DNA of 64,000 bases from Pleomorphomonas sp. PLEO (GTDB taxonomy: Bacteria > Pseudomonadota > Alphaproteobacteria > Rhizobiales > Pleomorphomonadaceae): contig NZ_CP166625.1 of assembly GCF_041320595.1 (NCBI RefSeq), forward strand, positions 2,429,501 through 2,493,500, in the 5' to 3' direction. The notes under the pieces are model-generated. The model did not search any database. It was not told the origin of the DNA and was given only the letters and a program-made list of their open reading frames with translations. This document shows positions 14,940 through 21,695 of this stretch, piece by piece (the first letter of the stretch is position 1; each line of letters opens with the position of its first letter). Both the position numbers and the translations under genes were made by a program.

Positions 14940-14967
14940 TGATCTGAAGGGCGTCCTCGCGCGTATT
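14940..14967 (+). promoter_or_regulatory. RpoE(ChrR)-type promoter for the DUF2177 gene
   Basis: TGATCT (14940-14945), exactly 16 bases, then CGTATT (14962-14967). It is the same architecture as the promoters at 17461-17490 (minus) and 17530-17558 (plus) around rpoE itself. It lies 24 bp before ATG 14991. Confidence 0.7.
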
Positions 14968-14990
14968 GACATGAGACAACGGAGGTCGTC

Positions 14991-15395
14991 ATGCCCAACG
15001 CCATCGCCATCTACGCGGCCGGACTGATCAGCTTTCTCGCCCTCGACGCCATCTGGCTCGGCACCATGGTGCCACGTCTCTACAAGCCGGCGATGGGTGA
15101 CCTCGTCGCCGATCCCTTTCAGCCGGTGCCGGCGGTCATCTTCTACCTGATCTATGCCGCCGGCCTCGCCTATTTCGCCATCCAGCCGGCGCTCGCGTCG
15201 GGCAAATGGTCGACGGCACTGATATCAGGCGCCGCGCTGGGCTTTGTCGCCTACGCGACCTACGACCTCACCAATCAGGCGACCGTTCGCGCCTGGCCGA
15301 TGGTGATCACTGTCGTCGATCTCGCCTGGGGAACGGTGGCCAGCGGTCTTGCCGCGCTGATCAGCTATCTGGTGCTGTCGCGCTGGTTGTCCTGA
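14991..15395 (+). CDS. DUF2177 family membrane protein
   Basis: A 134-residue integral membrane protein with four predicted helices (about residues 5-22, 45-65, 75-95 and 105-130). The signatures FLALDAIWLG and YDLTNQATVRAWP are diagnostic of DUF2177. ACGGAGG precedes ATG 14991. Function is unknown, but a member sitting behind an RpoE-type promoter next to rpoE-chrR suggests a role in the singlet-oxygen/membrane response. Its 3' end overlaps the convergent DUF1295 gene by 31 bp. Confidence 0.9.
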   Translation: MPNAIAIYAAGLISFLALDAIWLGTMVPRLYKPAMGDLVADPFQPVPAVIFYLIYAAGLAYFAIQPALASGKWSTALISGAALGFVAYATYDLTNQATVRAWPMVITVVDLAWGTVASGLAALISYLVLSRWLS

Positions 15396-16168
15396 CCTAT
15401 CTTGGGAGGCCAGGGAAAGAAGGGCGAGACGCGCGCCTGATAAGCGCGGAACGGCTCGCCCCGGCTTTCCAGCATGTGGCGTTCGAGCGGCGGAATGCCC
15501 GACACGTGCACCAGCAGCCAGTAGATGGAGATCGGTGCGACGAGAACGAGGGCGGTCTGCCAATGCAGGCCGTTGATGCCGATCACGGCGATGCCCACCC
15601 AGAACAGCCACTCGAAGAAATAATTGGGGTGGCGCGACCAGCCCCATAGCCCCCGATCGCAGACCTCGCCCGGCCGATCGCGCCGGAAGGCGGCGAGGGT
15701 GCGGTCGGAATGCCACTCGCCAATGAGCGCCAGCAGGACGACGGCGGCGGCGCAAGCGTCCTGCCAGCCGAGTGGGCCAACGCGCGCGGCGGCGGCAGCG
15801 GCCGCCAGCGCCAGCAGCCAACCGGCTATGGCCTGCATTTGCAGGAAGAGGAACAGGCGGCGTGGCGCGGTCTCTCCCCATTGACGACGAAGGGCGGCAT
15901 AGCGCGGGTCATCGACACCGGCGCCCAGCGTGCGGCCGACGAGATGCCGACTAAGGCGAACCGCCCAGACGGCGATCATCAAGGCAACGATCAGCGGACG
16001 TTCGATAGGACCCGGCAGAAGAAGGATCATCACCAGCGCTGCGATGCCGGTCGCCAGCGCCCAGATGCCGTCGATGAAGCCAGAGCGGCGAGTGCGTTCG
16101 GCGATGAGCGACGCCGCCGCCATGGCCACCATCAGGATCACGAGCGACAGACCGGCGCCGATCAGCAT
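15365..16168 (-). CDS. DUF1295 family membrane protein (steroid 5-alpha-reductase-like fold)
   Basis: A 267-residue polytopic protein of the DUF1295/ICMT-like superfamily. It contains RPGEVCDRGLWGWSRHPNYF and FEWLFWVG, whose Arg-His-Pro-Asn-Tyr-Phe element is shared with membrane reductases and methyltransferases that bind NADPH or SAM. It starts 3 bp after the chrR stop, so it is the third gene of the rpoE-chrR transcript. The probable substrate is a membrane lipid; this is inference. Confidence 0.88.
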   Translation of the reverse strand: MLIGAGLSLVILMVAMAAASLIAERTRRSGFIDGIWALATGIAALVMILLLPGPIERPLIVALMIAVWAVRLSRHLVGRTLGAGVDDPRYAALRRQWGETAPRRLFLFLQMQAIAGWLLALAAAAAAARVGPLGWQDACAAAVVLLALIGEWHSDRTLAAFRRDRPGEVCDRGLWGWSRHPNYFFEWLFWVGIAVIGINGLHWQTALVLVAPISIYWLLVHVSGIPPLERHMLESRGEPFRAYQARVSPFFPWPPKIGQDNQRDSTR

Positions 16169-16170
16169 GG

Positions 16171-16818
16171 CTATAGTCCTATCAATGCCGTTGCCATGCG
16201 GGCGATCAGGCCGTGCGGCCTCAGCCGCCCCTCGATCGATGCAAGGCAGATGCAGGTCTCATCGCCGGTCACCACCGGCGTATGGTGAGTGTCGTCGTCC
16301 TCCTCGGCCAGATCACCGGCGGCAACCCGCCCGTGCTCGTCGGCGAAGGCGCCCCGCAGCACCAGCGTCAACTCTTCCCCGGAATGACCATGGGTCGGTA
16401 TGCGCTGTCCGGCGGCGATCTTCAGCAGAACCAGGCTGATGCGACGATCCTCGGGGACGTCGAGGCGGGCGAAGGCCATGCCCGGCCCCATCCAGCGCCA
16501 GCCGGAGGTTGCTCGCTCGGCGATCGGGGCGGGCAGATCGATACCGAGATTATGCACCGGTCGCCGCCTCGATGGCGCGGGGGCGGGGCGTTTTTCGTCG
16601 AGCCGAGCCAGCGTCCGTTCGAACAGGCGGGCGTCGAGTTCGGCGGGCGACAGGCGTTCGATGAGCGCCCCACCAAGGGCCAGCATGTCGCGATGAGCGG
16701 CGGCGCAGCTGTCGCAGAGCGCGAGATGGCTCTCCACCACCAGCGCGGCGCTGGGTGATAGCGATCCGGCCGCGAAGCGGGCGAGCAGTTCGGGGCTTGG
16801 GTGGCGGCTGGCAATCAT
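16171..16818 (-). CDS. chrR: Anti-sigma factor ChrR (zinc ASD + cupin)
   Basis: A 215-residue two-domain anti-sigma factor. The N-terminal zinc-binding anti-sigma domain has the H-x3-C-x2-C motif HLALCDSC (about residues 31-38). The C-terminal cupin domain has HGHSGEELTLVLRG with a later acidic/His cluster (DDDTHHTP) for a second metal. In Rhodobacter sphaeroides, ChrR holds RpoE inactive until singlet oxygen triggers its loss. It overlaps rpoE by 4 bp, as expected for a partner pair. Confidence 0.94.
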   Translation of the reverse strand: MIASRHPSPELLARFAAGSLSPSAALVVESHLALCDSCAAAHRDMLALGGALIERLSPAELDARLFERTLARLDEKRPAPAPSRRRPVHNLGIDLPAPIAERATSGWRWMGPGMAFARLDVPEDRRISLVLLKIAAGQRIPTHGHSGEELTLVLRGAFADEHGRVAAGDLAEEDDDTHHTPVVTGDETCICLASIEGRLRPHGLIARMATALIGL

Positions 16819-17393
16819 GACGACTCGTCGAGCATTTGGCGCAGGCGATTCATGGCGAGGCGGATGCGCGACTTGACGGTGCCGAGCGGGATGCCAAGCG
16901 CTGACGCGATTTCGCTCTGCGGCGATTGGGAGAAGAAGGACAGGGCGATGACGTCCGCCTGTTCGGTCGGCAGTCTGTCGAGGGCGCGGCGCACCCGTGT
17001 TTCGTCCTCGCGGGTGATGATTTCGCCTTCGGCCGACGGGCTGGGGTCGACGTCGCTGGGTGGCAGATCATCGTCGCGAAGGCGGCGGGCGACCCGGCGG
17101 CGGCGATCGATGCCGAGATTGCGCGAGATGGTGAAGATCCAAGTGGAAACGGCGCCGGATTTGGCGTCGAACTGCCCAGCCTTGCGCCAGACGGCCAGCA
17201 TGGTGTCCTGGATCAGGTCGTCGCAGTCGCTGGCGCCGAAGCCCTGCCGGCTGAGGAAAGTCTTGAGGCGCGGCGCGTAGTGGGAAAATAGCCGGGCAAA
17301 GGCCTGCCGGTCGCCGGCCTCCGCGATGGCCGCCACAAGGCGCGCGGCTTCCTCGCCATCGAGCGGCTGCGTCTTGGCATCTGCCGGTCTCAT
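16815..17393 (-). CDS. rpoE: ECF sigma factor RpoE (ECF11, singlet-oxygen response)
   Basis: A 192-residue group IV sigma factor. Region 2 contains FARLFSHYAPRLKTFLSRQG, DCDDLIQDTMLAVWRKA and VSTWIFTISRNLGID. Region 4 contains ALDRLPTEQADVIALSFF and IASALGIPLGTVKSRIRLA. ATG 17393 is preferred over the in-frame ATG 17456 because the candidate -10 element (17461-17466) abuts the latter, leaving no leader. It forms an operon with chrR and the DUF1295 gene and is probably autoregulated from 17461-17490. Confidence 0.93.
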   Translation of the reverse strand: MRPADAKTQPLDGEEAARLVAAIAEAGDRQAFARLFSHYAPRLKTFLSRQGFGASDCDDLIQDTMLAVWRKAGQFDAKSGAVSTWIFTISRNLGIDRRRRVARRLRDDDLPPSDVDPSPSAEGEIITREDETRVRRALDRLPTEQADVIALSFFSQSPQSEIASALGIPLGTVKSRIRLAMNRLRQMLDESS

Positions 17394-17460
17394 GGAACTG
17401 ACCGCCGTTTCAACGGTTGCCCTGAGAAGAAATGAATTTGCCCGTCCACGTCTCATGCCT

Positions 17461-17490
17461 TTTCTACGCGTCGCCCGCGGCGATGGATCA
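17461..17490 (-). promoter_or_regulatory. Autoregulatory RpoE-type promoter of rpoE-chrR
   Basis: Read on the minus strand: TGATCC (plus 17485-17490), 16 bases, then CGTAGAAA (ending at 17461). This agrees with the TGATCC-like -35 element and the TA-rich -10 element described for Rhodobacter RpoE targets. Transcription would begin close to 17455, about 60 nt before ATG 17393. Confidence 0.7.
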
Positions 17491-17529
17491 CTCGTGGTTC
17501 ACTTCCGATAAAATTCGTCTCCAGGCAGG

Positions 17530-17558
17530 TGATCTCTCGCAGTGGGAGCATCGTAAAA
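17530..17558 (+). promoter_or_regulatory. RpoE-type promoter of the amine oxidase-DUF1365-CFA operon
   Basis: TGATCT (17530-17535), 16 bases, CGTAAAA (17552-17558). An upstream ATG at 17529 overlaps this -35 element, so it cannot be the start codon if the promoter is real; the ATG at 17598 is used instead. Confidence 0.72.
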
Positions 17559-17597: not shown

Positions 17598-18938
17598 ATG
17601 GTCGAAGAGACAAGAGTCGACAAACGGCTCGAGATCGCGGTCGTTGGATCAGGCATCGCCGGCCTGTCGGCGGCCTGGCTGCTTGCCAGCCGCCACGACG
17701 TGACGGTCTATGAGGTAGACCGCCGGCTGGGCGGCCACAGCAATACCGTGCTGGCCCCGACCGAGGGCGCCTCCATCCCGGTCGATACCGGCTTCATCGT
17801 CTACAACGAGCCGACATATCCCAACCTCACGGCGATGTTTCGCCATCTCGGCGTCGAGACGGAGGCGACCGAAATGTCGTTCGCGGTGTCGATCGACGAC
17901 GGCCGTCTGGAATACGCCGGCTCCGATCTTGCCGGCCTGTTCGCCCAGCCTGTCAATATTCTGCGGCCACGCTTCTACGCCATGATCGCCGATCTCCTGC
18001 GGTTCTACCGGCGTGCGCCGCGCGATGTCGACCAGCTCGACGGGATGACGCTCGCCGCCTATCTCGATGCCAACGGTTATGGCCGCGCCTTCCGCGAGGA
18101 TCATCTCTATCCGATGGCGGCGGCCATCTGGTCGACGCCCGCCGCCGACGTCGGCGCCTACCCGGCCGAGGCCTTCATCCGCTTCTGCGACAACCATGGC
18201 CTGCTAAAGCTGCGCGACCGACCGCAATGGCGAACGGTGAAGGGCGGCAGCCGCGCTTATGTGTCGCGGCTGTCCGAACCGCTCACCGGACGGATGATGA
18301 TCGGCCGCGACGTGAAGATCGTCGAGCGCTCGGCCGCCGGCGTGGTGATCGAGGATGGAGCGAGCCAGCGTCGGTTCGACAAGGTGCTCCTCGCCTGCCA
18401 TGCCGATCAGGCATTGGCGGTCGTCAAAGCGCCCACCGAGGTGGAGCGTCGCGTTCTCGGCGCCTTCCGCTACAGCCGCAACCTTGCCGTTCTGCATGGC
18501 GATCCGCGCCTGATGCCGCGCCGCCGCGCCGCCTGGTCGGCCTGGAACTATCTGGCGACCAGCGACCACTCGTCCGGCCCGTCGGTCACCTACTGGATGA
18601 ACCGGTTGCAGCATATCGACCCCTCGGTACCGCTGTTCGTGACGCTCAACCCGCTCGTTGAGCCGAGCCCCGACCGGATCTACTGCCAGTTCGACTACGA
18701 GCATCCGTTGTTCGACCAGCCGGCCATCGAGGCGCAGAGGCAACTGTGGACGATCCAGGGTGTCGGCAACGTCTGGTACGCCGGCGCCTATTTCGGGGCC
18801 GGTTTCCACGAGGACGGCTTGCAAGCGGGCCTTGCCGCCGCCGAGGCGATGGGCGGCGTACGCCGGCCATGGTCGGTTGAGAGCGAATCCGGCCGCATCC
18901 ATTTGGGTCCTGGCATTTGGGGCGAGGCGGCAGCATGA
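17598..18938 (+). CDS. FAD-dependent amine-oxidase-like oxidoreductase (NAD(P)-binding Rossmann)
   Basis: A 446-residue flavoprotein of the protoporphyrinogen oxidase/amine oxidase superfamily. The N-terminal dinucleotide fold is [19 protein letters not shown] (about residues 13-31), ending in [14 protein letters not shown]. Near the C-terminus [19 protein letters not shown] is the second FAD contact. Homologues travel with DUF1365 and a CFA-synthase-family gene in RpoE-ChrR regulons and probably act on membrane lipid chains. It overlaps the next gene by 4 bp. The true substrate is unknown. Confidence 0.9.
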
Positions 18939-19711
18939 CCTCAGCCCTCTACGCCGGCCAGGTCTTTCATCGACGGCTTCGCCCGGCGCCGCATAGCCTC
19001 AAATACGGCGTCTACATGCTGCATGCCGATCTCCGTCGGCTAGGCGATCTCGGCCGGGCTTGCCGCTTCCTGTCGGTCAACCGCTGGAATATTCTGTCCT
19101 TCCACGAAGCCGACCACGGGCCGGCCGGGGAGGGCGCTCTTGCCGCGCGCATCCGGAGTCTTGCTCTCGAGCATCGCCTCGAATGGGATGGCGCCGGCCT
19201 GACGCTGATCGCCATGCCACGCCTTCTCGGCTTCGTGTTCAATCCGTTCAGCGTCTATTTCTGCCGCAACGCCGACGGTCGGCTGGCGGCGCTGATCTAC
19301 GAGGTCCGCAACACCTTCGGCGGCATGCACCACTATGCCGCCAACGTCGGGCTTGATACGGCCGGCACCATCCATCATTCGGCGACCAAGGATTTCTACG
19401 TCTCGCCCTTCCTGCCGATGGCGATGCACTACCGCTTCCACGTCAAGCCGCCGGCCGAGCGCTTCACCGTCGCCATCGAGGATCACGATGGCGAGGGCCT
19501 GATGCTCTCCGCCTCGATGGCCCTGAGGCGCGAAGACCTCACCGATCGCGCCATCGCCCGTCTGCTCGTCCGCTTCCCGTTGATGACGCTGAAGGTGGTG
19601 GCCGGCATCCACTGGGAGGCGCTGAAGCTGTGGCTGAAGCGCGTCCCCTTCCATCCCCGCCCCGGTGGCGGTCCCAAAGGCTTCAATCCCACGGAAAGGT
19701 CTTCCGGATGA
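18935..19711 (+). CDS. DUF1365 family protein
   Basis: A 258-residue protein with the family blocks [47 protein letters not shown] and [14 protein letters not shown]1365 has no assigned activity but is consistently encoded between an FAD amine oxidase and a CFA-synthase homologue, as here. Its ATG overlaps the oxidase stop (ATGA) and its stop overlaps the cfa start, implying tight co-translation and a joint role in lipid modification. Confidence 0.92.
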
Positions 19712-20940
19712 CGTCACTCTCCACGCTCGCCCCGTCGATCGTCAGCCTGGCGTTACCGACCCCGCTGCGCGTCGCCTTCGTCAAGCGCATGCTTGGCAAG
19801 GTCGAGCGCGGGCGTCTGTCGGTCGTGCTGCCCGACGGCACCTGTCTTACCGCGGTCGGGCATCTGCCTGGGGCGACGGCCGAACTCAGGATCCTGCGCT
19901 GGCGGGCGGTCGGGCGTTTGCTGACCGGCGGCGATGTCGGCTTTGCCGAGTCCTATGTCGACGGCGATTGGGATACGCCCGATCTCGTCGCGTTCGTCAC
20001 GCTGTGCGCCGACAATCTCGATACCTTGGTCAAGGTTGCCGAGGCGTCGCTGCCGGTGCGGCTGACCCAGCGCCTGTTGATGCTGATGCGCCGCAATTCC
20101 AAGAGCGGCAGCCGGCGCAACATCATGGCTCACTACGACCTCGGCAATGCCTTCTATGCCGAGTGGCTCGATCGGGAGATGATCTATTCCTCGGCGCTCT
20201 ACGAGCAGGGCGACGATCTCGAAGCCGCCCAGAGGCGCAAGTTTCAGCGCATCGCCGACATGCTCCAGCTCGACGGCGGCCAATCGGTGCTGGAGATCGG
20301 CTGCGGCTGGGGCGGGCTTGCCGCCTATCTCGTCGGTGCCGGTGCTCAGTCGGTCGAGGGTATCACGCTGTCGCCGGCCCAACTGGCCATCGGTCAGGAT
20401 AGGGTGCAGGAGCGCGGCCTTGCCGAGTGCGTGTCGCTGGAGTTGCGCGACTATCGCGACGTGCAAGGGCAATACGACCGCATCGTGTCGATCGAAATGT
20501 TCGAGGCGGTGGGCGAGGCCTATTGGCGCGGCTATTTCGACAAGCTGCGTGAGGCGTTGACGCCGGGTGGCCGGGCCGTGGTGCAGGTGATCACCATCGC
20601 CGACGACCGCTTCGAGCATTACCGCAGCCATCCCGACATGATCCAGACCATGGTGTTTCCCGGCGGCATGCTGCCCAGCAAGGCGGTGTTCGCCGAAGTG
20701 GCCGAAGAGGCGGGCTTTGCCTTGCGCGACAGGCTGGATTTCGGCCTCTCCTACGCCAGGACACTCGCCGACTGGCGGCACCGCTTCGAGGCGGCATGGC
20801 CTAGGATCGCCGACCTTGGCCATTCCGCCGCCTTCAAGCGCCTGTGGTCCTATTACCTCGCCTATTGCGAGGCGGGTTTCCGGACTGGGCGGATCGACGT
20901 CAGCCTCTACGCGCTGGAGCCGGTCAGCGTGCCGAAGTAA
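19708..20940 (+). CDS. Cyclopropane-fatty-acyl-phospholipid synthase family SAM methyltransferase
   Basis: A 410-residue CFA-synthase-family enzyme. The SAM site [17 protein letters not shown] (about residues 193-209), [31 protein letters not shown] and [11 protein letters not shown] are typical, as is [12 protein letters not shown]. The reaction is transfer of a methylene/methyl group to an unsaturated acyl chain of membrane phospholipid. Relatives in Rhodobacter are RpoE targets and include enzymes of furan fatty-acid formation, so the product may be a cyclopropane, methylated or furan acid. Last gene of the operon. Confidence 0.92.
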
Positions 20941-21015: not shown

Positions 21016-21285
21016 ATGTCCAAGCTGCGCCACCAGGAACCAGCTTCGCCTCGCGAGGCCAAGCTGTTTCGCAACAACAAGAGCCAAGCCGTACGCATCC
21101 CGGCCGATTTCGAGCTGCCGGGTGATCGGGTCATGATCCACCGCGACGGTGACCGGTTGATCCTCGAACCGATGCCGCGCAAGAGCCTGTTGGACGTGTT
21201 GGCCGGGCTTCAGCCGCTTGCCGATGCCGACCGGTTCCCGGAGATCGATGCCACGCTACTGCCGGTCAAGGATATCGACCTGTGA
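21016..21285 (+). CDS. vapB: VapB-type antitoxin (SpoVT-AbrB fold)
   Basis: An 89-residue protein. The DNA-binding swapped-hairpin domain is AKLFRNNKSQAVRIPADFEL followed by DRVMIHRDGDRLILEP, standard for VapB. The C-terminal tail (about 57-89) would wrap the toxin. ATG 21016 has AAGGGG upstream. It overlaps vapC by 4 bp and likely represses the pair through the palindrome at 20994-21005. Confidence 0.9.
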   Translation: MSKLRHQEPASPREAKLFRNNKSQAVRIPADFELPGDRVMIHRDGDRLILEPMPRKSLLDVLAGLQPLADADRFPEIDATLLPVKDIDL

Positions 21286-21695
21286 TCTACATGCTCGACA
21301 CCAACATCGTGTCCGAGCTTGCCCGCAACCCGCAGGGCGTTGTGACCGAACGCATCGCGGCGGTGGGGCCGGACGCGATCTGCGTCAGCATCATCACGGC
21401 GGCGGAGCTGCGTTATGGCTGCGCCAAGAAAGGTTCAGCCAAGCTCACGGCCCAGATCGAAGCAATCCTCGGCGGCTTGCAAGTGGCGGCGCTCGACGTG
21501 CCTGTTGACGCCGAATACGGTGCCGTCCGCGCCCAGTTCGAACAAGCTGGCCGCCCCATCGGCCCCAACGACCTGCTGATCGCCGCCCATGCGCTGACGC
21601 TCGGCGCCGTGCTGGTGACGGCCAATGTCGGCGAGTTCTCTCGGGTTGAGGGGCTCAAAGTCGAAAACTGGTTGGGGTCGGGCGAGAGCCTCTGA
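21282..21695 (+). CDS. vapC: VapC-type PIN-domain ribonuclease toxin
   Basis: A 137-residue PIN domain protein starting at GTG 21282. The conserved acidic residues are in MLDTNIVSEL (Asp6), TAAELRYG (Glu) and PNDLLIAAHAL (Asp), with NVGEF near the end; together they bind the Mg/Mn needed to cut RNA. It is neutralised by the VapB protein encoded immediately upstream. Confidence 0.92.
   Translation: MIYMLDTNIVSELARNPQGVVTERIAAVGPDAICVSIITAAELRYGCAKKGSAKLTAQIEAILGGLQVAALDVPVDAEYGAVRAQFEQAGRPIGPNDLLIAAHALTLGAVLVTANVGEFSRVEGLKVENWLGSGESL

Follow-up and report, generated by a model that had tools for sequence, protein, structure and literature searches.

Why should a sigma factor, its anti-sigma factor, three putative lipid-modifying enzymes and two membrane proteins of the families DUF2177 and DUF1295 stand side by side behind promoters of one design? 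The question is raised by a stretch of 64,000 nucleotides from Pleomorphomonas sp. PLEO (NZ_CP166625.1, positions 2,429,501 to 2,493,500 of the forward strand; hereafter the window), which is part of one 5.476 Mb contig. Our analysis suggests that these seven genes form a singlet-oxygen response locus of the extracytoplasmic function group 11 (ECF11; RpoE-ChrR) type with three sigma-E promoters and a furan-lipid operon, in which DUF2177 and DUF1295 would act as accessory furan-lipid proteins; to this reading as a whole, including the ECF11 assignment, we give a probability of about 0.82. Its new element is that DUF2177 and DUF1295 are connected with the furan-lipid module, as the sequence comparisons suggest. 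Gene content, promoter matches, conservation, co-occurrence and the fold class of DUF1295 are direct observations. The features are:

14940..14965, plus strand: putative ECF11 (RpoE/ChrR-type) promoter TGATCT-N16-CGTA of DUF2177; exact match, congener alignment
14991..15395, plus strand: DUF2177 membrane protein, 134 amino acids; PF09945, 2.6e-43; model with a predicted local distance difference test (pLDDT) score of 95
15365..16168, minus strand: DUF1295 membrane protein, 267 amino acids, sterol-reductase/ICMT-type fold; PF06966, 9.4e-60, and Foldseek
16171..16818, minus strand: anti-sigma factor gene chrR, 215 amino acids; TIGR02451, 1.9e-55; 2z2s closest solved structure, E 5.7e-35
16815..17393, minus strand: ECF11 sigma factor gene rpoE, 192 amino acids, ATG at 17393; Pfam; 2q1z closest solved structure, E 2.4e-36
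17465..17490, minus strand: putative ECF11 promoter TGATCC-N16-CGTA of rpoE-chrR-DUF1295; exact match
17530..17555, plus strand: putative ECF11 promoter TGATCT-N16-CGTA of ufaD-ufaO-ufaM; exact match, back to back with the rpoE promoter
17598..18938, plus strand: UfaD-like flavin oxidase/desaturase, 446 amino acids; PF01593, 1.8e-17, and PF13450, 5.5e-15; position as RPA2571 of Rhodopseudomonas palustris
18935..19711, plus strand: UfaO-like DUF1365 protein (furan-forming oxygenase family), 258 amino acids; PF07103, 1.9e-76; position as RPA2570
19708..20940, plus strand: UfaM-like methyltransferase of the cyclopropane fatty acid (CFA) synthase family, 410 amino acids; PF02353, 3.2e-77; position as RPA2569

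Gene families were assigned by Pfam and, for ChrR, also by NCBIfam. The start codons are our own choice; for rpoE the ATG at 17393 was preferred to the start at 17456 given by the open reading frame tool, because the latter almost coincides with the predicted transcript start. With these starts, four-base overlaps join rpoE to chrR, ufaD to ufaO and ufaO to ufaM, chrR and DUF1295 are two bases apart, and a GGAGG ribosome-binding site precedes DUF2177 at about 14981. An earlier note on this DNA had described three units with seven genes, each unit headed by an RpoE-type promoter, and this description holds as far as the sequence tells.

Sigma switch and promoters

Comparison with solved structures assigns the regulatory pair to RpoE and ChrR. 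RpoE of the window matches 2q1z best (2.4e-36; next best 5.4e-17), and ChrR aligns with 2z2s in His6, His31, Cys35 and Cys38 as well as in the His-Gly-His...Glu residues of the cupin domain, all of which we take to be the ChrR zinc ligands; 2q1z and 2z2s presumably represent the RpoE-ChrR pair of Rhodobacter sphaeroides. ChrR is a Cupin_7 protein by Pfam and scores 188 bits with TIGR02451 (cut-off 124.5) and 177.6 with the narrower equivalog NF051881, which is below the cut-off of 300 of that model.

An exact scan with TGATCY-N16-CGTA returns exactly three matches in the 64 kb window, all with the N16 spacing and all at the positions listed above, and dinucleotide shuffles of the window give a mean of 0.02 matches with none of 100 reaching three, bearing out the earlier description of three promoters of the same design. 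The implied novelty of this design had to be rejected, since it equals the published ECF11 consensus including the spacing: chromatin immunoprecipitation data of Pseudomonas syringae give TGATCC-N16-CGTA, Pos19 of R. sphaeroides reads TGATCC-N15-GCGTA, which is the same as TGATCC-N16-CGTA, and start sites mapped in Shewanella (S. oneidensis) lie behind TGATCC and CGTATT/CGTAAT. In two of the three window sites the last C of the published TGATCC is replaced by T. These and all further comparisons with published systems draw on PMC6852236, PMC7380195, PMC3818230, PMC4067076, PMC5507510, PMC4336711, PMC5036791, PMC11832516, PMC10940516, PMC11313482, PMC11109279, PMC8491031, PMC10188600 and PMC7074977.

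The whole genome was also scanned with the pattern, as proposed in the earlier note. The 5.476 Mb contain 11 matches versus three for the reversed pattern, and three of 11 uniformly placed sites would fall within 2,620 bp with a P of about 6.5e-5; of the eight sites outside the window, inspection of the open reading frames places only one before a gene and seven within long open reading frames (least clearly so for L006). We therefore rejected the raw genome count as proof of a regulon; as far as can be read from sequence, the strength of the motif evidence lies in clustering and conservation. The one outside site resembling a promoter, TGATCC-N16-CGTA at C1:1869153-1869178 of the host genome (G000; loci L005 and L042), is located just before a short-chain dehydrogenase gene, which is likely a further regulon member; this gene type is described within the core RpoE regulon of R. 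sphaeroides. Near the photolyase gene of the host, the whole-genome scan found no exact motif site.

The promoter triplet is present in all four searched genomes of the genus, the host included. At this locus we find three of the four genome-wide matches of G475 and three of the 11 of G180, both with the genes around the sites verified, and three of the 14 of G474, in which the spacing matches and the genes are inferred from that spacing. Six promoter sequences from five genomes (G180 contributing twice), when aligned, agree fully in TGATC, CGTA, GGAG and ATG but have diverged over most of the spacer.

For a broader view we used an order sample of 199 and a phylum sample of 299 genomes, as well as two sets of DUF2177 loci, i.e. 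an order set of 61 (the window and 60 loci fetched of 83 further matches) and a named set of 80. As one locus is common to both (L081 = L142), the sets are nearly but not wholly separate; pooling yields 140 distinct DUF2177 genes, and the shared locus is counted twice in the 81 DUF1295 loci and in the 140 loci of the neighbour counts given below. Motifs were searched up to 250 bp upstream, with counts unchanged whether or not the gene's first 30 bases were included. The strict motif precedes 25/29 RpoE and 19/36 UfaD genes of the order set and 40/51 and 28/59, respectively, of the named set. The spacing upstream of DUF2177, RpoE and UfaD is 16 in 61, 15 in three and 13 in one of the 123 regions of the order set, and 16 in 87, 15 in two and 20 in one of the 190 regions of the named set (pooled: 16 in 148, 15 in five, 13 in one, 20 in one), and a scrambled -35 control gives no match.

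The candidate furan-lipid operon

According to published work, RPA2571-2570-2569 of R. palustris encode UfaD-UfaO-UfaM, which make 9M5-furan fatty acid, and these three genes sufficed for its formation in an R. sphaeroides strain without ufa genes of its own. Recombinant UfaO takes the ring oxygen from O2, and furan fatty acids are described as singlet-oxygen scavengers and as part of a feedback activating the RpoE-ChrR response. Compared by family profiles, the oxidase, DUF1365 and CFA-family genes of the window have the order of R. palustris ufaD-ufaO-ufaM by locus tag. Because of this shared order, the case for a furan product is a strong one: by analogy the operon probably makes furan fatty acids, and the earlier guess of modified, for example furan, fatty acids gains support from operon order and families. 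R. palustris differs in possessing fufM (RPA0924), whereas a PF02353 search of the window genome found no second methyltransferase of the coclaurine N-methyltransferase/FufM type, and a monomethyl furan would therefore be expected in this host.

The RpoE-ChrR system of R. sphaeroides (RSP1091-1087) shares with the window the sigma/anti-sigma pair, the promoter consensus and adjoining UfaD-UfaO genes, and its core regulon also includes a CFA-family methyltransferase and a short-chain dehydrogenase, as found in the window genome. It differs in the separate location of ufaM (RSP2144), which neighbours phrA (RSP2143), and in that RSP1089-1087 follow ufaO; the description of the core in the excerpts seen does not name DUF2177 or DUF1295. 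Outside bacteria, Arabidopsis AT3G23510 is reported to resemble both UfaM and UfaD.

DUF2177 and DUF1295 beside the furan-lipid genes

DUF2177 occurs in 79 of the 199 genomes of the order sample, and DUF1365, the UfaO family, is found in 78/79 of these versus 37/120 genomes lacking DUF2177; in the phylum sample, 35 of the 41 DUF2177 genomes have DUF1365 (Fisher tests, 3e-25 and 1.4e-14, both ignoring kinship among genomes that are mostly Alphaproteobacteria of related orders). ChrR scores over its cut-off in 71/79 DUF2177 genomes of the order, and the other eight all keep DUF1365. Because of these figures, i.e. 78 versus 71 of 79 and eight ChrR-less genomes retaining DUF1365, DUF2177 fits a furan-lipid pathway better than the ChrR system; of the tie to the ChrR response proposed earlier, the comparative link to the module stands, but the association of DUF2177 with the furan enzymes is tighter than that with ChrR. 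Six loci of ChrR-less genomes keep DUF2177 beside ufaD-ufaO-ufaM, none of them having the motif in the 250 bp ahead of ufaD (0/6 vs 18/29, P 0.008). As the three ufa genes suffice for synthesis and 37 of the 115 DUF1365 genomes do without DUF2177, a role after furan synthesis appears likelier than a synthetic step.

Upstream of the DUF2177 genes the strict motif is found in sense orientation in 20/61 of the order set (24 with a looser pattern; none for the reversed pattern and for shuffles) and in 19/80 of the named set, giving 39 of the 140 distinct genes with the window included and none for the reversed pattern. ChrR, UfaD or UfaO lies in the same stretch in 37/61 and 59/80 loci. The arrangements vary: DUF2177 has its own promoter, follows in rpoE-chrR-DUF2177 (directly behind chrR in 6/141 loci) or ufaDOM-DUF2177, diverges from ufaD, or comes after DUF2147 and a photolyase, with one upstream site in common. 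An example of the last type is Mesorhizobium L137:8150-10387, where a promoter-like site is followed by consecutive genes for DUF2147, DNA photolyase and DUF2177; among the 140 loci, 49 have DUF2147 and 13 the photolyase. DUF2177 of an Agrobacterium locus is followed immediately by a gene for another ECF sigma factor (L135:10429-11103), and a sigma gene likewise lies 3' of DUF2177 in some loci of Rhizobium. The nearest named relative of the window protein is that of Oryzibacter oryziterrae (82% over the best segment). The protein is predicted as a four-helix structure (pLDDT 95), its invariant residues including Asp19, Tyr91, Asp92, Asn95 and Asp110; the model has no match in the PDB at E <= 0.001 (best 0.85), and the sequence has none among solved structures at E <= 1.

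For DUF1295, the 41 genomes of the order sample with the full type have DUF1365 in 40 and ChrR in 38 cases. The link to the ChrR response drawn in the earlier note is thereby backed, as it is by the 28 of 82 loci with DUF1295 directly 3' of chrR, though the fit to DUF1365 is slightly better. In the remaining loci DUF1295 lies one gene further (11), divergently next to ufaD (25) or in none of these positions (18). An alpha/beta hydrolase of the BD-FAE type stands between chrR and DUF1295 at L136:12262-13155 and L187:12222-13109, and such a hydrolase is present in 18/140 loci; operons of an alpha/beta hydrolase and DUF2177 have been reported beside heliorhodopsin genes.

A second methyltransferase on the same strand adjoins DUF1295 in 60/81 loci. 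The one member compared with the PDB matches plant coclaurine N-methyltransferase at E 3.8e-57 versus 1.3e-24 for CFA synthase, and we take the plant methyltransferase AT4G33110 to be of the coclaurine type, too, by its annotation. The furan methylase FufM is described as related to AT4G33110, and we thus treat it as belonging to the same type as the second methyltransferase beside DUF1295.

The predicted DUF1295 model (pLDDT 94.5) is matched by Foldseek to sterol and steroid reductases with probabilities of 0.98-1.00 (1.00 for delta14-sterol reductase and SRD5A2) and to ICMT with 0.99. A weak profile match to the 5-alpha-reductase 7c83 (E 5.8e-5) covers the C-terminal cofactor region, in which an invariant Pro-Asn-Tyr and a near-invariant Glu186 align; ICMT shares this fold, and the Pfam ICMT model matches DUF1295 weakly, below its cut-off. 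Judged by the model, DUF1295 has the membrane fold and the C-terminal cofactor region of the steroid/sterol reductase-ICMT superfamily. Hypothetically, it would most likely reduce a C=C bond with NADPH.

Two published systems bring the same families together. In Stenotrophomonas maltophilia, deletion of chrR is reported to raise expression of the nine genes Smlt2375-2367 165- to 697-fold, the levels dropping again when the sigma factor is missing, and ChrA, the third gene product of rpoEc-chrR-chrA, to promote expression of the regulon. With gene identities taken from order, this divergent chrR-controlled operon resembles the window in carrying oxidase, DUF1365-position and DUF1295-position genes and contains two CFA-type genes; it differs by desaturase, DUF2878-position and lipocalin genes, and the like-ordered L243 has no DUF2177. 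The loci L243, L244, L246 and L252 resemble it, having UfaD-UfaO-UfaM followed by DUF1295 and the second methyltransferase, with a desaturase preceding in L243 and L244, DUF2878 between UfaM and DUF1295 in L243, and a lipocalin gene 3' in L244 and L252 (not seen in L243). From this match, DUF1295 would by order be placed at Smlt2369 (197-fold). In Chlamydomonas reinhardtii, Table 5 of the respective paper includes CFA1, CFA2, DUF1365, DUF1295 and DUF2177 genes among the SAK1-dependent singlet-oxygen genes, CFA2 also being named coclaurine N-methyltransferase CPLD27. UfaM-type, UfaO, FufM-type, DUF1295 and DUF2177 proteins thus all have singlet-oxygen counterparts in the alga by the annotation of that paper, and none for UfaD was seen. 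The algal system differs in being made up of nuclear genes under SAK1 rather than ECF11. A later review, in its accessible parts, mentions CFA genes and furan acids but not the families DUF2177 and DUF1295, and within the open-licence literature we found no link of the two families to the furan module, the Chlamydomonas paper alone uniting several of the terms.

Proposed mechanism and alternatives

These comparisons support a model, with regulation, enzymatic steps and product taken over from homologues, according to which three sigma-E promoters drive DUF2177, rpoE-chrR-DUF1295 and ufaD-ufaO-ufaM. Singlet oxygen or organic peroxides would lead to breakdown of ChrR, a step known from R. sphaeroides, and so release the sigma factor to switch on all seven genes. 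UfaM would then methylate a cis-vaccenoyl chain, UfaD introduce a second double bond and UfaO insert oxygen, yielding a methyl-furan fatty acid, as shown for the homologues, and the furan chain may scavenge singlet oxygen and aid ChrR turnover, as described in the literature. DUF1295 and DUF2177 would be accessory to the furan-lipid pathway and not to the sigma switch. Their chemistry is hypothetical: DUF1295 could, for example, reduce the ene-dione left after the furan ring meets singlet oxygen, and DUF2177 would most likely be a small membrane protein handling the same lipids.

Several observations weigh against this reading. No recognisable motif is present within 250 bp upstream of 37/61 and 61/80 DUF2177 genes, some of which lie inside operons; in the ChrR-less loci the difference before DUF2177 itself is not significant (0/6 vs 23/54, P 0.07), and the six genomes concerned, of eight with two not fetched, come from only two families. 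The 37 of 115 DUF1365 genomes without DUF2177 indicate that furan synthesis itself does not require it, and DUF1365 is missing from six of the 41 phylum-sample genomes with DUF2177, four of these belonging to family f56. In this family, which is of the same class as the host, G274, G313, G392 and G426 carry DUF2177 with no DUF1365 match, and a fifth genome, G443, has both. Foldseek gives DUF1295 weak E-values (best 0.014, none below 0.001), and ICMT, a methyltransferase with this fold, ranks little below the reductases. Outside the Alphaproteobacteria, finally, where 40 ufa loci were fetched of 53 genomes of other classes with DUF1365, UfaD-, UfaO- and UfaM-type genes occur in 40/40 loci, and within the stretch DUF1295 occurs in 6/40 and DUF2177 in 1/40, so that the set of seven genes belongs mainly to the Alphaproteobacteria; all six loci with DUF1295 also carry the second methyltransferase, and named records of Variovorax and Nitrococcus contain a fuller gene set.

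DUF2177 and DUF1295 might instead belong to the sigma switch, with a part in ChrR turnover or signal relay, for example. Both can sit directly behind chrR (6/141 and 28/82 loci), ChrA of S. maltophilia is, as mentioned, reported to promote expression of the regulon, and the fit of DUF1295 to ChrR (38/41) nearly equals that to DUF1365 (40/41). We nevertheless consider such a role unlikely, given the eight of 79 DUF2177 genomes that keep DUF1365 without ChrR over the cut-off, and given the second methyltransferase adjoining DUF1295 in 60/81 loci and recurring in 6/6 of its non-alphaproteobacterial loci. That both proteins are bystanders, associated through old gene order or co-inheritance, would agree with the kinship of most genomes sampled, which the co-occurrence tests ignore, and with the single locus in 40 that has DUF2177 near ufa genes outside the Alphaproteobacteria; it is very improbable in view of the same parts occurring in several operon arrangements, including the Variovorax and Nitrococcus records, of the promoters before many lone DUF2177 genes and of the recurrence of the same families as singlet-oxygen genes in Chlamydomonas.

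The CFA-family enzyme, named CMAS by Pfam, could also be an ordinary cyclopropane synthase, making cyclopropane rather than furan fatty acids the product of the operon. In CFA synthases, the histidine of a Leu-His-Thr-Ile-Gly stretch binds bicarbonate. The window enzyme lacks this stretch, whereas the separate CFA synthase of the host keeps it, and among 72 homologues of the window enzyme 62 have another signature, ten neither and none the canonical one. Taken together with the gene's place beside those of the UfaD and UfaO types, an order for which furan synthesis has been demonstrated, this makes a cyclopropane product quite unlikely.

With the furan-lipid reading preferred, two widespread families, DUF2177 and DUF1295, now have a concrete candidate pathway and inducer. 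The agreement with the singlet-oxygen genes of the alga suggests one lipid defence reaching beyond phototrophic bacteria, and a gene search found no photosynthetic reaction-centre gene in the host genome. More tentatively, DUF2177 and DUF1295 might be unrecognised members of a furan-lipid defence kit common to bacteria and green algae, DUF1295 reducing the ene-dione and DUF2177 acting on the same lipids; if true, the furan scavenger would be repaired or safely disposed of and not merely spent.

Scans for sigma-70 promoters and terminators gave zero promoter-like and two terminator-like sites, no excess over shuffles, and were rejected as evidence. Behind the ufa operon, at 21019-21695 of the window, Pfam identifies a MazE-type antitoxin and a PIN-domain toxin as a pair.

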